Positions 42,513 through 49,239 of a DNA stretch of 64,000 bases are shown in pieces. Source of the stretch: Gemmatimonadota bacterium. GTDB lineage: Bacteria > Gemmatimonadota > Gemmatimonadetes > Gemmatimonadales > GWC2-71-9. The position numbers and the translations under genes are program-made. The notes under the pieces are model-generated. The model saw nothing but the letters and a program-made list of their open reading frames with translations. It had not been told where the DNA came from and did no database searches. Each line of letters begins with the position of its first letter. The stretch's first letter is position 1. The stretch spans positions 186,001-250,000 of the forward strand of contig QHVB01000024.1 in NCBI GenBank assembly GCA_003222195.1. Direction: 5' to 3'.

Positions 42513-43580
42513 CTAATCTCCGAAACTTACCCCCAGGTCCCGGGCCGTGGCGATGGTATCAGAGTCGAGCGGCACGCGGCGCGGAGCTGCAAGCGCCTCT
42601 TCGATGGCGATCGGGACGATCCGGGGCGGCTGTAACGCCACCATCATCCCGAACTGCCGCTCGGCCACCAGGCGCACGGCGGCGGCACCGAATCGCAATG
42701 CCAGCAATCGATCAAACGTCGTCGGACTACCGCCGCGCTGCAGATGCCCGAGCACCAGCGACCGCGCCTCCTTTCCCGTCATCTGTTCGATGGAATGGGC
42801 CACCTTGTCGCCGATGCCGCCGAGTCGTTCGTGGGCGGGATCGATGAGAGAGACCGTGCCGCCTTTCGGAACGGCGCCCTCGGCCACGACGACAATGCTG
42901 AAGTGCCGCCCCTCGGCTTCGCGGCGGCGGATCTTGTCGCACACCTTGTTGATGTCGAACGGGATTTCGGGAATCAGGATGACATCGGCCGAGCCGGCGA
43001 TTCCTGAATGCAGCGCAATGAACCCGGCGTAGCGGCCCATCACTTCGACGACCATCACCCGCTCGTGACTTTCGGCGGTCGAATGGACCTTGTCGATCGC
43101 GTCCGTGGCGGTGGACACCGCGGTATCGAAGCCAAACGTCGCGACGGTGCCACCAACGTCGTTGTCGATCGTCTTGGGCACGCCAACGACTGGAAGTCCT
43201 TTCTTCCACAGCGTCAGGACGATGCCGAGCGTGCCTTCGCCGCCGATCGCCACGAGAGCATCCAGCCGATTCGAGCGAAAGGATTCGAGCAGCTCATCCG
43301 TCCGATCCAATTCCGCCCACGTCCCGTCCGACTGCTGCATGCGCCAGTTGAGCGGATTACCACGATTCGACGTGCCGAGAATCGTGCCGCCGAGGTGCGT
43401 GATCCCGCGAACCTCGTTGGGGCCCAGCGGCATGAGCTCGCCCTCGCCCAGCAGGCTCCCGAATCCCCGCCTGATTCCGACGCATTCCCAACCGCGATGG
43501 ACGGCGCTCAACACGACGGCCCGGATGACGGCATTCAGCCCAGGCGCGTCACCGCCGCCGGTGGAGATCCCAATTCTCAC
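42513..43580 (-). CDS. pfkA: 6-phosphofructokinase (mixed-substrate, group III type)
   Basis: A 355-residue PfkA-family enzyme: GGGDAPGLNAVIR at the N-terminus, GGEGT (113-117) at the phosphoryl-donor site and PKTIDND (135-141) with the catalytic Asp. E. coli ATP-PFK has GGDGS and PGTIDND; the PPi enzymes have GGDDT and PKTIDND. The combination of Gly at the first site with Lys136 at the second is that of group III (Amycolatopsis-like), whose members may use PPi or ATP, so the donor is uncertain. The start is GTG 43580, overlapping the selenoprotein's TGA (GTGA): the two are translationally coupled. Confidence 0.9.
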   Translation of the reverse strand: MRIGISTGGGDAPGLNAVIRAVVLSAVHRGWECVGIRRGFGSLLGEGELMPLGPNEVRGITHLGGTILGTSNRGNPLNWRMQQSDGTWAELDRTDELLESFRSNRLDALVAIGGEGTLGIVLTLWKKGLPVVGVPKTIDNDVGGTVATFGFDTAVSTATDAIDKVHSTAESHERVMVVEVMGRYAGFIALHSGIAGSADVILIPEIPFDINKVCDKIRRREAEGRHFSIVVVAEGAVPKGGTVSLIDPAHERLGGIGDKVAHSIEQMTGKEARSLVLGHLQRGGSPTTFDRLLALRFGAAAVRLVAERQFGMMVALQPPRIVPIAIEEALAAPRRVPLDSDTIATARDLGVSFGD

Positions 43581-43831
43581 CGCTTGCTGGAGGGAGTGTT
43601 GGGGCCGGCTGCCCCGCGAATCAACCGCAGCACTTCGCCGGGTTCGGCATGCCGCTTGGTGGTTTTTTTGGAGAAGACCCGATGTCCGTCGACGTCTACC
43701 TCGAAGACGCCGCCTGACGATTGGATCAGCCGCACGTCAGCATGCGGGAAGGCATCGCGGAGCTCGGCCGCCAGACCGGTGGCCCGAGGCTCGTAGTTTC
43801 AGATGACGCAGTATTCGATGGTGACGGTCAT
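43577..43831 (-). CDS. SelW/Rdx-family selenoprotein (CxxU), UGA-encoded Sec11
   Basis: ATG 43831 opens a frame MTVTIEYCVI, TGA (43801-43799), then NYEPRATGLAAELRDAFPHA and on to a second TGA at 43579-43577, 84 residues in all. The part after the first TGA is plainly the rest of a SelT/SelW/SelH (Rdx) thioredoxin-like protein: the redox motif is Cys8-V-I-Sec11, where relatives have CxxC or CxxU, and SSGGVFEVDVDGHRVFSKKT is the conserved second half. A hairpin with apical GGUCU lies 21 bases after the UGA (bacterial SECIS). Its final TGA overlaps the pfkA GTG. Expected role: thiol redox reaction in the cytoplasm; partner unknown. It is divergent from the signalling gene. Confidence 0.88.
43763..43788 (-). 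promoter_or_regulatory. Bacterial SECIS element
   Basis: On the mRNA: CUCGG, bulged G, CC, A-C mismatch, CC, loop GGUCU, GG, C, GG, CCGAG. The stem has nine Watson-Crick pairs and the apical loop starts with GGU, the same GGUCU found in the fdhF SECIS of E. coli that SelB recognises. The loop begins 21 bases after the UGA, within the 16-37 base range described for bacterial SECIS elements. Confidence 0.82.
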
Positions 43832-43887
43832 GGCGTGAAGGATAGTCGCGCTTGACACCCCGCGCCACGTCGCCGACCTTGCGCGAC

Positions 43888-46008
43888 ATGCGGCTTCCGT
43901 CGCGCTTCTCGGCGGCACCGGCGCTCATCGTGCGTCTCGCGGTTTCCGTTGCCGCGCTGGTCAGCTTCGGCGCTGCGCTTGTCGCCTACGTCAACGGCCG
44001 CGTTCCCGCCGGGGAGAATCTGCCGTTCGCCGGCGCCCTGCTCGTCCTCGTCGCCGCGATCACGCGCCGCTACGGCATCGCGCTCCCGGGAAACGGCTTC
44101 TCGTCGTACGTCCTCGGCGTCATGCTGTACGCCATTCTCGACCGCGGCTGGGCGTTCGCCGCCATCGTCGCGCCCTTCGCGATGCTCGCGGGCGACGTGC
44201 TCCTCCGGCGTGTGCCGGTGCGCACCGCGCTCGGGAATGCCGCTCACCTGACGGCGGGATCCGCGTTCGTCGGCTGGATGTACCTCCGTCTGAGCGGCGC
44301 CACCGGGGCCGCCGCTCTTTCCGCGGACAACGCCTGGGTCGTCGCGCTCACGGTCGTCCTGTTGCCGGTCATCGTGAACGGCACGTTCTATCTGGAGCTC
44401 GCACTGGGGCAGACGATTGCGTGGGTGGATGCGCAGCTGACACTGCGCTGGGAATCGATCGTCTATCTCGTGTCCGCGGCGCTGGCGCTGACCTGGCTGG
44501 CCGTCGCGCATGCGGTCATTCCCGTTGGAACACGCGGGTTACTGTTCGCCGCCCTCGGGATTGCCACGGCCGGCAGCTTGCAGGTGTTGCGATTGGGCGT
44601 GCGTGCCGACGAGCTGAGCCTGATTCAACGACTCGCCCAGGTGATCGCCGCCGAGCTCACGTTGACGCAGAGCTTCAAGCGCGTACAGGAGCTGACCAGG
44701 CAGCTCGTCCCCTGGGAACAGATGGGCTTTGCCCGCTACGATGCACGGACCCGGCAGATGGAGCTCGTGGCCGACACGGCGGCGCAGCCGGGCACGACAT
44801 TCCGCTTCGATTCCGACGCCGGTCTGACCGGCGAGGCGGTGCGGCTGAAGCGCCCCGTCGTGGCGCATGGCCTCGCCAAAGATCAAGTCGTCGTGCCGGG
44901 CGGGGAAACGCCCGGTTCGGAGATGCTCGTCCCGCTGTACCACGCCGGCCAGCTGGTGGGCTTGTGGAGCGTGCGGCACTCCGATCCGGCGATGTACCGC
45001 CAGTCGGACGGGGATCTCCTCGAGCTACTGGCGCCGCAGCTTGCGCTGATGGTCGCGATCGATGGCTCGCTGCGCCCCGTCACGGGCGCCTCTGATCAGA
45101 CGATGCAGTACGTCCAGACACTCACGGCCACCACGGAAGAGATCCACGCGTCGAGTGAGGAAGTTGCGGCCGCCGCCCAGCGCGCCAGCCACGGCGCCGG
45201 GCAGGCGGCGACTCTGGTCACCACGGCATCGCGCGAGGCCGGCCAGCTGAAAGACAGCGCCGCCGAGCTGGCGGCGGCCGGCGATCGGACGCGCGAAGCG
45301 GGCGCGCAAATGGAGAAAACCGCCGACCGCGTGCGGACCGGAACTCAGGACGCCGTGCGTCAGTTGACCGATCTTGGCGCCACCACCGAAGAAAGCGCCG
45401 CCGAGGTCGGGCGGCTGCGTGAAGTCGCCACGCAGGTCGAGAAATTCTCCGAGACGCTCGGGTTCGTCGCGAATCAGACGAATCTGCTCGCCCTCAACGC
45501 GACGATCGAGGCGGCGCGCGCGGGCATTCACGGGCGAGGATTCGCGGTGGTCGCCGACGAGGTCCACAAGCTCGCCGAAGCGAGCGGGCGCGAGGCGCGC
45601 AACGTCGGCAAAGCGGTCCAGGACACGCGCCGGGCGTTGGACCGCGCCGCCCAGTTGATCGAACGAATCCGCGGCGATCTGCGCCAGGTGGTTCAGAACT
45701 CCGCCGCGTGGCTGCAGGACCTCGATCGTATCGCGGAGGCCGCCGCCGAGACGGCACGGGCCGGAAAACAGGTGGCGGAGTTCGGTCGCCAGAGTACCGA
45801 CCTGGCGGCGAAAATCACCGAGTCGCTCGGTCAGGCGCGCGCGGGAGCCCAGACTTCCAGTCAGGAGGCCGAAGCCGTTGCGGCGGCGGCCGCCGAGCAG
45901 TTGCGGGCCATCCAGGATCTCGCGCATGGCGCGACCGAGTTGTCAGCCCTTGCCGAGCAGCTGAGGCAGGCGCTCCGCTTTATTCGCGGCGGAAACGGCC
46001 ACCCCTAG
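43888..46008 (+). CDS. Membrane GAF/methyl-accepting signalling protein
   Basis: About 706 residues: an N-terminal block of six to eight transmembrane helices (to about 230), a GAF domain ([20 protein letters not shown] to [13 protein letters not shown]), then a methyl-accepting chemotaxis signalling domain whose hairpin tip is [20 protein letters not shown] with [16 protein letters not shown]. It probably senses an internal or membrane signal and drives a CheA-type kinase; no HAMP domain or periplasmic sensor is present. The frame is open from a TTG at 43852, but that TTG coincides with a TTGACA -35-like hexamer, so I prefer ATG 43888. It stands alone and is divergent from the selenoprotein gene. 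Confidence 0.87.
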
Positions 46009-46094
46009 ACCAGGCGGATGGTGACGCGCGCTACAGGGGTTTCTCAACTCGAGGTCGATTATTAAAGTGGAGTGCCGCTAACCTCGGGAGAGAC

Positions 46095-47546
46095 ATGCGC
46101 ACGCGGACGACGCTGCTGGTGCTGGGCCTGAACGCCGTTCCTGCCCTCTGCGTCGCGCAGCATGCTCATCAATTCGAAATCGGCGCGTTCGGCTCGTTCA
46201 CCCGCTACGACCGTGCGTTCGGCCTAGACAACAAGATCGGCGGTGGCGGTCGCCTCGGCTATTTCTTCAGCCGTTCGATCGGCTTCGAGCTTGAGCTGGG
46301 CTACCAACAGCCCCACCCGCTAGGCGGCGTGTCCAACCCGGCGTTGTCACTAGGCAGCGGCAGTCTCGCGCTCAACCTGGGAAACGAACACAACCTCTTC
46401 TATATCCTCGGCGGCTACACGCGCCTCCAGTTCAGTTGGGATGGCGGCACCAACTTCAACTTCAAGGACAACGCCGTTCACGGTGCGCTCGGCGATCGGA
46501 TCTTCTTCGGCGAACGCGTTGCACTGCGCGTCGAAGGGCGGGCGATCTACTCTCCCAACACCCACCACATCAACGGCGGGTGGGCGGGACACGTGGTGGC
46601 CTCCGCCGGATTGTCGATCTTCACCGGTCCGAGCGCGTTCCGTGACACCGATCGAGACGGCGTTCCCGACAACAAGGACAATTGTCCCAACACACCGGTG
46701 GGTGCCGTCGTGGACGCGAAGGGGTGCCCGCTCGATTCCGATCGCGATGGCGTGCCTGATGGCCTCGATGCATGCCCGAACACCGTCGAGCACGCGGAAG
46801 TCGATGCTCGCGGCTGTCCCAAGGACAGCGACGGCGACGGTGTGTACGACGGCATCGACAAGTGTCCCGGCACTCCCGTCGGCGCCCGCGTGGACGCGCA
46901 GGGATGTCCCACCGATGCCGACTCCGACGGCGTGCCGGACGGGCTCGACCAATGCCCCAACACGCCGAAGGGCGCGACGGTCGATGCGACCGGCTGCCCG
47001 GTGGATAGCGATCACGACGGCGTGCCGGATGGCCTGGACAAGTGCCCTAACACGCCCCCGGCGACGGAAGTCGATTCCGTCGGTTGCCAGCGCGTGACGG
47101 ATAGCGACGGCGACGGTGTCGACGATGCGAAGGACAAATGTCCCGGGACGGCTGCCGGCACTCGCGTCGATTCGGTCGGCTGCCCCATTCTCTTCACCGA
47201 AGCACGGACGCCTGTCGTCCTGCGGGGCGTGACGTTCGAGATCGGCCGGTCGGCGCTGAAGCCGGATTCCTACACGATCCTCGACATCGTCGCGGCTTCC
47301 CTGGTCGCTAATCCAGACATCAAGATCGAAATCGCGGGCCACACCGACAACACGGGCTCGGCTGCCACCAACACGCGCTTGTCGCAGGCACGAGCGGAAG
47401 CGGTGCGCGCCTATCTCGCAAGCAAGGGTGTCGCGCCGGACCGAATGATCGCCAAGGGCTACGGCCCCACGCAGCCCGTCGCGCCAAATACGACGCCCGC
47501 CGGCCGGGCGCAGAACCGGCGCGTCGAGCTGCGGCAGACCAACTGA
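46095..47546 (+). CDS. OmpA-family outer-membrane protein with six TSP3 repeats (first copy)
   Basis: A 483-residue protein: signal peptide (MRTRTTLLVLGLNAVPALCVA), an eight-stranded OmpA-like beta-barrel (about 22-180), six thrombospondin type 3-like calcium-binding repeats of about 30 residues (DSDxDGVPDGxDxCPNTP), and a C-terminal OmpA peptidoglycan-binding domain (VTFEIGRSALKPDSYTILDI, IEIAGHTDNTGSAATNTRLS, ending GRAQNRRVEL). It should bridge outer membrane and cell wall. GGGAGAG precedes the ATG. The second paralogue starts 13 bp downstream, so both are in one operon. Confidence 0.93.
   Translation: MRTRTTLLVLGLNAVPALCVAQHAHQFEIGAFGSFTRYDRAFGLDNKIGGGGRLGYFFSRSIGFELELGYQQPHPLGGVSNPALSLGSGSLALNLGNEHNLFYILGGYTRLQFSWDGGTNFNFKDNAVHGALGDRIFFGERVALRVEGRAIYSPNTHHINGGWAGHVVASAGLSIFTGPSAFRDTDRDGVPDNKDNCPNTPVGAVVDAKGCPLDSDRDGVPDGLDACPNTVEHAEVDARGCPKDSDGDGVYDGIDKCPGTPVGARVDAQGCPTDADSDGVPDGLDQCPNTPKGATVDATGCPVDSDHDGVPDGLDKCPNTPPATEVDSVGCQRVTDSDGDGVDDAKDKCPGTAAGTRVDSVGCPILFTEARTPVVLRGVTFEIGRSALKPDSYTILDIVAASLVANPDIKIEIAGHTDNTGSAATNTRLSQARAEAVRAYLASKGVAPDRMIAKGYGPTQPVAPNTTPAGRAQNRRVELRQTN
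46644..47186 (+). repeat. Six 90-bp TSP3 repeats
   Basis: Six degenerate in-frame units of about 90 bp encoding D-x-D-x-DGVPDG-x-D-x-CPNTP-x-G-x-x-VDAxGCP. The aspartates form calcium sites and the two cysteines per unit can pair. Confidence 0.9.
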
Positions 47547-47559
47547 GCGGAGGTACAAC

Positions 47560-49239
47560 GTGAGAACGATCGCCACAATCGTGATAATGATGGTTGCGAC
47601 AAGCAGCCTCTCGGCTCAGTACGACCGGCGCTACGAAGTCGGCTTGTTCGGCGCCTTCACGAAGTACGACAAGGCGTTCAATCTGGCCAGCAAGATCGGC
47701 GGCGGCGTCCGCTTCGCGTACGCCTTCACACCGATGATCGACGTCGAGGTCGAGGCGCTATTTCAATCACCGCAGGACGTCGGGACTGCACACCTCGAGC
47801 CGTTGATCGGCGGTGGCAGTCTCGTCGTGAACGCCCTGAACGCGCCCCGCATGTCGGTCTACGTGCTGGGTGGATATTCCCGGCTGGACTTCGGCGCGAC
47901 CAGCCCGTACCGCTTCACGGACGGAGGATTCCACGGCGGCGCGGGCGCCAAGTTCTTCATGAGCTCGCGGTTCGCGCTGCGATTCGAAGCGCGCGGCATC
48001 TACACTCCGAGCACGACGAGCGCATTTCCCGGGGCCAGCAAGAGCGCGACCCATCTCGTCGCATCCGCCGGACTCGCGTTCTTCCAACCGGACGCGGCTC
48101 GGCGGGCGGGCGACGCCGATGGCGACGGCGTGCTGGATAAGGACGACGCCTGTCCCGACACACCGATCGGTGCGACCGTCGACAAGCGCGGCTGCCCCGC
48201 AGACGCGGACGGCGATGGCGTCTTGAACGGTATCGATCAGTGCCCCGACACGCCGGCTGGCGCGACCGTCGATGCGCGCGGGTGCCCGCACGATCAGGAC
48301 GGCGACGGTGTGCTGGACGGCATCGATCAATGCCCCGACACACCCGCGGGCCAGAAGGTCGATGCCAAAGGGTGTCCGCTGGCGGCGCCCGGACTCGCGG
48401 ATTCCGACGGTGATGGCGTAAACGATCTCCTCGACAAGTGCCCTGGGACACCTGCGGGCGCCAAGGTCGATAGCGACGGATGCCCGATCGATTCCGACCA
48501 TGACGGCGTCTGGGACGGCATCGACAAATGCCCCGGCACGCCGGCAGGCGCGACCGTGGATGCGACGGGTTGCCCGCACGATTCGGACGGCGACGGCGTC
48601 TTTGACGGCATCGATCAGTGCCCCAACACGCCGACGGGAACGCCCGTCGATGCCACCGGCTGCCCCCTCGACAGCGACAAAGACGGCGTGCCGGACAACC
48701 TCGACAAATGCCCCAACACGCCGGCCGGCATCAAGGTCGATGCTAACGGCTGCCCGATCGAGCACGATTCCGACGGCGACGGGGTGCCCGATCAGTTGGA
48801 TCGTTGCCCCAACACGCCGCCCGGATCAAAGGTGGATCAGTTCGGCTGCGTGCTGCTGTTCGAGGTCACGCCGGCTCCGCCCGGGGCACCGCCGGCCCGC
48901 CCGACGCTGATTCTGCAAGGCGTCAATTTCCAGACGGGACGCTCGATCCTGACGCGCGAGTCGTACGCGGTGCTGGACCAGGTTGCGGCCTCACTGGTCG
49001 CGAACCCGGAAATCCGGATCGAGATCGCCGGATATACCGACTCGACCGGCCGCAAACTGACGAACATGCGGCTCTCGATGGGACGGGCGGGAGCGGTGCA
49101 GCACTATCTCGCCCGCAAAGGAGTCAATCCGATGCGGATGCGGGCGCGGGGATTTGGAGCCTCTGGCTACATCGCCCCGAACTCGACGGCGGAAGGACGA
49201 GCGAAGAACAGACGGGTCGAGTTGCATAAGCTGAATTAG
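47560..49239 (+). CDS. OmpA-family outer-membrane protein with eight TSP3 repeats (second copy)
   Basis: A 559-residue paralogue of the preceding gene with the same order: signal peptide (RTIATIVIMMVATSSLSA), beta-barrel (about 20-180, YEVGLFGAFTKYDKAFNLAS echoes the first copy's FEIGAFGSFTRYDRAFGLDN), eight TSP3 repeats and OmpA domain (VNFQTGRSILTRESYAVLDQ, ending GRAKNRRVEL). The start is GTG with a perfect GCGGAGGT five bases upstream. It differs in repeat number and in a longer proline-rich linker before the OmpA domain. Followed by a strong hairpin at 49262-49292. Confidence 0.93.
   Translation: MRTIATIVIMMVATSSLSAQYDRRYEVGLFGAFTKYDKAFNLASKIGGGVRFAYAFTPMIDVEVEALFQSPQDVGTAHLEPLIGGGSLVVNALNAPRMSVYVLGGYSRLDFGATSPYRFTDGGFHGGAGAKFFMSSRFALRFEARGIYTPSTTSAFPGASKSATHLVASAGLAFFQPDAARRAGDADGDGVLDKDDACPDTPIGATVDKRGCPADADGDGVLNGIDQCPDTPAGATVDARGCPHDQDGDGVLDGIDQCPDTPAGQKVDAKGCPLAAPGLADSDGDGVNDLLDKCPGTPAGAKVDSDGCPIDSDHDGVWDGIDKCPGTPAGATVDATGCPHDSDGDGVFDGIDQCPNTPTGTPVDATGCPLDSDKDGVPDNLDKCPNTPAGIKVDANGCPIEHDSDGDGVPDQLDRCPNTPPGSKVDQFGCVLLFEVTPAPPGAPPARPTLILQGVNFQTGRSILTRESYAVLDQVAASLVANPEIRIEIAGYTDSTGRKLTNMRLSMGRAGAVQHYLARKGVNPMRMRARGFGASGYIAPNSTAEGRAKNRRVELHKLN
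48112..48852 (+). repeat. Eight 90-bp TSP3 repeats
   Basis: Eight degenerate units of the same 30-residue TSP3 pattern as in the neighbouring gene, the fourth with a short LAAPGLA insertion. Confidence 0.9.

Follow-up and report, generated by a model that had tools for sequence, protein, structure and literature searches.

A putative SelW-like selenoprotein gene adjoining phosphofructokinase in Gemmatimonadota

A SelW-like gene with an in-frame TGA

Descriptions of SelW-like selenoproteins in bacteria go back to the mid-2000s, with CxxU forms reported from the Sargasso Sea (PMC1088965) and SelW-like selenoproteins reported across bacteria (PMC1794560). In ocean samples they were, along with SelD, the most widespread (PMC2398784), and they are included in current reviews (PMC9312934, PMC13188914). 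For SelW of Campylobacter jejuni (CJnc60), full-length translation has been demonstrated by Ribo-seq and proteomics (PMC11955535). The protein family is thus already known; its lineage in Gemmatimonadota has apparently gone unrecorded until now.

We analyzed a window (the whole stretch of DNA, 64,000 nucleotides) from a Gemmatimonadota bacterium in which an earlier note had read a SelW/Rdx protein with an in-frame UGA and the motif Cys8-Val-Ile-Sec11. Direct reading of the minus strand showed that all of its coordinates for the gene were correct, with the start ATG at 43831-43829, the in-frame TGA at 43801-43799, and an open frame from there to a final TGA at 43579-43577 (Table 1). The product encoded on the minus strand from 43831 to 43577 is MTVTIEYCVI-U-NYEPRATGLAAELRDAFPHADVRLIQSSGGVFEVDVDGHRVFSKKTTKRHAEPGEVLRLIRGAAGPNTPSSKR, and its frame, its translation, the family profiles, and the conserved TGA all confirm the reading of the motif. 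A plain list of open reading frames with a minimum of 80 amino acids contained no entry at the selW locus; NCBI does hold a family model, NF041051. The selW ATG has no evident Shine–Dalgarno motif upstream (43831-43860, minus strand), and a TATCCT ending 7 bases upstream of the ATG would be compatible with a leaderless mRNA.

Table 1. Coordinates of the features discussed (window positions unless a locus is named).
Feature	Position	Strand	Description and evidence
selW-like gene (Rdx family)	43577..43831	-	84 residues, Sec = codon 11, CVIU at residues 8-11; frame and translation, Pfam Rdx and NCBIfam NF041051, 31/31 relatives with TGA
In-frame TGA, codon 11, read as selenocysteine (predicted)	43799..43801	-	Conserved TGA; natural Cys codon at that position in G136/L134
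SECIS hairpin core	43766..43784	-	Stem 43784-43778 with 43772-43766 (one A.C mismatch), apical loop GGUCU 43777-43773; fold and comparative evidence
ATP-dependent 6-phosphofructokinase (PFK)	42513..43580	-	GTG start overlaps selW stop; PF00365 2.2e-102, TIGR02483 433 bits
Cys-form selW and PFK of G136	L134:1707-1498 and 1480-404	-	

Aligned with SelW/Rdx proteins, as had been suggested, the 84-residue frame passed the curated cut-offs of both family profiles: Pfam Rdx (PF10262) matched residues 2-72 with an E value of 2.4e-21 and 76.2 bits (cut-off 22.6), and NCBIfam NF041051 SelT/SelW/SelH (SelTWH) matched with 98.9 bits (cut-off 88). The nearest solved structures by sequence are 2fa8 and 3dex. 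A structure model built on 22 relatives (mean pLDDT 78, with residues 76-84 below 50) has a thioredoxin-like fold in which the CxxU motif, C8-V-I-U11, comes after strand 2-8. The model superposes on 2fa8 and 3dex with a TM score of about 0.8 and on mouse SelW (2npb) with one of 0.70.

We scanned a genome collection with short patterns of the selW protein, a search that reaches close relatives only. All 31 relatives found, from Gemmatimonadota, Chloroflexota, and Krumholzibacteriota and down to about 42% identity, have TGA at the position of codon 11 and an intact frame beyond it, and invariant residues are present downstream of the TGA; the relatives are not independent, and such counts overstate the statistics. 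A profile search gave SelW-like family matches in 150 of 298 Gemmatimonadota genomes and, among the subfamily matches listed, nearly all have exactly one in-frame TGA, so that the lineage is documented in about half of the sampled phylum. Moreover, the single-contig complete genome G136 carries a Cys form of selW (51% identical, LCVGCNYQPRA) directly before phosphofructokinase. Finding Sec and Cys exchanged at a single syntenic locus is classically taken to mark a selenoprotein, and the exchange in G136 therefore supports the selenoprotein reading. The DNA itself shows the frame, family, conservation, gene order, covarying hairpin, and machinery except for selB. We put the probability that selW is a true selenoprotein gene of the SelW-like Rdx family, with UGA 11 read as Sec, at about 95%.

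The phosphofructokinase neighbor

The final TGA of selW shares bases with the GTG start of PFK (43580-43578) in a 4-base GTGA overlap, as the earlier note had claimed. Of 36 distinct Gemmatimonadota loci, 26 have PFK directly downstream on the same strand; 14 of these have a 4-base overlap (GTGA or TTGA), and in the remainder the genes are -10 to +89 bases apart. The other 10 loci have no PFK with an intact N terminus at that place, and in several of them the next gene is a helicase, the same one that follows PFK in the window. No PFK was found in the flanks examined of the Chloroflexota selW loci. The gene order is a real lineage arrangement within Gemmatimonadota that is absent from some members. 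In open-licence papers, we found no link between SelW and PFK and none between SelW and Gemmatimonadota, and the gene pair appears to be undescribed so far in this phylum.

At L081 (about 1500-2660 of G266:C172 in match orientation), the frame of selW continues into a PFK without the first 48 residues, which is either a gene fusion or an assembly artifact. In L012:4237-5130, PFK aligns over 355 residues within 894 bases, with about 57 residues missing from its interior, perhaps through a deletion or an assembly error. Elsewhere in the window, two adjoining genes on the plus strand (45708-47546 and 47560-49239) were recognized by eye as encoding OmpA-like outer-membrane proteins, both with long DxDxDGVxD runs (thrombospondin type 3-like repeats).

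Since selW leads directly into PFK in most Gemmatimonadota loci examined, often by a 4-base stop/start overlap, both genes are probably carried on one mRNA. The earlier note went further and took the two genes to be translationally coupled, marking a link to glycolytic redox as conjecture; the adjacency proves to be lineage-wide, but translational coupling and redox control of glycolysis are still conjecture. Added to the selenoprotein reading, such coupling would mean that PFK is translated on completion of selW, that selenium supply or Sec decoding sets PFK output, and that SelW acts on glycolytic redox. The 26 loci with PFK directly downstream and the 14 GTGA/TTGA overlaps speak for it, as do the overlapping PFK starts, which by eye have no evident Shine–Dalgarno motif just upstream, and the retention of the selW–PFK pair in the Cys-form genome; moreover, failure at the UGA would stop translation about 220 bases ahead of the PFK start. 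However, bacterial operons often contain four-base overlaps, gaps reach 89 bases in other members, 10 of the 36 loci have no intact PFK there and the Chloroflexota flanks examined none at all, and another gene of the PFK family is present in the genome. On balance, we consider the coupling unlikely. The corresponding general proposal, that Sec decoding is built into a glycolytic-enzyme operon in Gemmatimonadota and that selenium supply and SECIS-dependent decoding set the PFK level, with PFK following selW completion, strikes us as rather improbable. The pair offers a testable lead that links selenium use and PFK, so far by gene order only.

Hairpin and selenocysteine machinery

A hairpin with an apical GGUCU, 21 bases after the UGA and matching the bacterial SECIS rule, had also been proposed from the sequence. 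The rule calls for a loop of 3-9 nt with an early G, a stem of at least 4 bp, a spacing of 16-37 nt, and a minimum free energy of at most -7.5 kcal/mol (PMC13188914). The selW hairpin was borne out on each count, with the loop GGUCU starting exactly 21 bases after the UGA and a folding energy of -17.5 kcal/mol, yet this pass is not discriminating, as 41% of synonymous recodings also pass. Its folding energy is not unusual against shuffles (z of 0.2 to -0.5), and an Rfam scan of the locus gave chance matches only. The hairpin of a single sequence is weak evidence, and it becomes convincing only by comparison.

Comparison does supply this support. Among distinct sequences, 52 of 58 conform to the bSECIS rule against 27.8 expected, an excess that relatedness inflates. 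In 36 distinct Gemmatimonadota sequences, codons 5-11 downstream of the UGA hardly vary at synonymous sites (mean pairwise difference of 0.21 vs. 0.48 elsewhere, p 0.001), and the loop codon is invariably GGT where it encodes Gly (27 of 27) and AGT where it encodes Ser (7 of 7); elsewhere in the same genes, GGT accounts for about 11% of Gly codons. Stem positions change on both sides together: 15-33 from GC to AT or CG, 18-30 from CG to GC, and 20-28 from CG to TA. As a control, we slid the pairing along the sequence, and the core was 94% paired in register vs. 18-65% out of it. In Chloroflexota, the hairpin varies more from member to member, and some of them have a shifted loop. selW thus provides a clear case of covariation in a bacterial SECIS.

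We looked for the selenocysteine genes in the genome, as the earlier note had advised, and found tRNA-Sec (selC; 77.8 bits, anticodon tca), selA (534.9 bits), and selD (392.9 bits), the last with an in-frame TGA of its own. selD (L049, G000:C17:261399-262331) is itself a selenoprotein gene, and its UGA is followed by a hairpin, GGCGCA-GGUCU-UGCGCC, whose loop is identical to that of selW. selB was not found with TIGR00475 and PF09107, which gave only weaker matches that we assign to other GTPases of translation, EF-Tu for example. selB scored above the cut-off in 7 of the 10 genomes of the same genus that were searched, and in relatives it is flanked, as judged by eye, by genes resembling btuF and clpB-tadA. 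In the relative G008, DNA collinear with C95:57972-64000 continues to selB about 19 kb further on, whereas C95 is all N from base 64001 onward in each of the stretches inspected (64001-75000, 78000-90000, and 120000-134000). Because the expected place of selB reads N in C95, its apparent absence is best explained as unreadable sequence, selB itself not having been seen. A ClpB gene on C85, considered as a candidate selB neighbor, was set aside as a different copy (47% identical), and no ortholog of the TadA-like neighbor was found in the genome (best match 31% identical). The earlier note would have given up its reading if the sel genes were missing and the homologs ended at the first TGA; here three of the four sel genes are present, and the homologs run on past it.

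These results bear on whether the UGA could be read through without the Sec system, for example by a near-cognate tRNA that supplies Trp or Cys. The downstream frame would be conserved whatever residue was inserted, and selB was not directly seen; but tRNA-Sec, selA, and selD are all in the genome, a covarying hairpin sits at SECIS distance, selD has the same kind of signal, and the natural variant has Cys, and we regard such readthrough as highly improbable. Least probable of all is that the TGA genuinely ends translation, or is a sequencing error, and that the downstream frame is either an Rdx pseudogene in decay or a plain CxxC protein: the unreadable selB and the Cys form in one relative would agree with it, but the TGA and intact frame in 31 of 31 relatives to about 42% identity and in nearly all phylum matches listed, the invariant downstream residues, and the synonymous constraint around the hairpin oppose it, and TGA conservation led us to reject pseudogene and sequencing error for the family.

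Under the selenoprotein reading, we infer a mechanism in which the SECIS hairpin, its core 15-33 nt after the UGA, would recruit SelB with Sec-tRNA-Sec. UGA 11 would then be decoded in the cell as selenocysteine, yielding the full 84-residue thioredoxin-like protein with its C-V-I-U redox pair. This protein would probably serve as a thiol–disulfide oxidoreductase, forming a reversible selenenylsulfide and acting on a putative redox partner.

Comparison with known systems

The selW product shares its fold and sequence family with the Rdx structures 2fa8 (Atu0228) and 3dex (SAV_2001) and with mouse SelW (2npb). In contrast to selW, 2fa8 and 3dex have Cys at the position of the UGA, and only about a third of residues are identical. 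The bacterial SelW-like (SELENOW-like) selenoproteins of PF10262/NF041051 (PMC1088965, PMC1794560, PMC2398784, PMC13188914) belong to the same families and likewise have CxxU and a SECIS just after the UGA. Those papers leave Gemmatimonadota unmentioned, and in Gemmatimonadota selW precedes PFK in most loci examined.

C. jejuni SelW, after whose group NF041051 is named, resembles selW in its length of about 80 residues and in its UGA read by tRNA-Sec; it comes from another phylum, and it is only there that decoding has been proven by experiment. The Prx–SelW pairs of marine metagenomes (PMC2398784) likewise place a SelW-like gene in a conserved gene pair. However, the partner in those pairs is a second selenoprotein, a peroxiredoxin, whereas the partner in Gemmatimonadota is a glycolytic enzyme without Sec.
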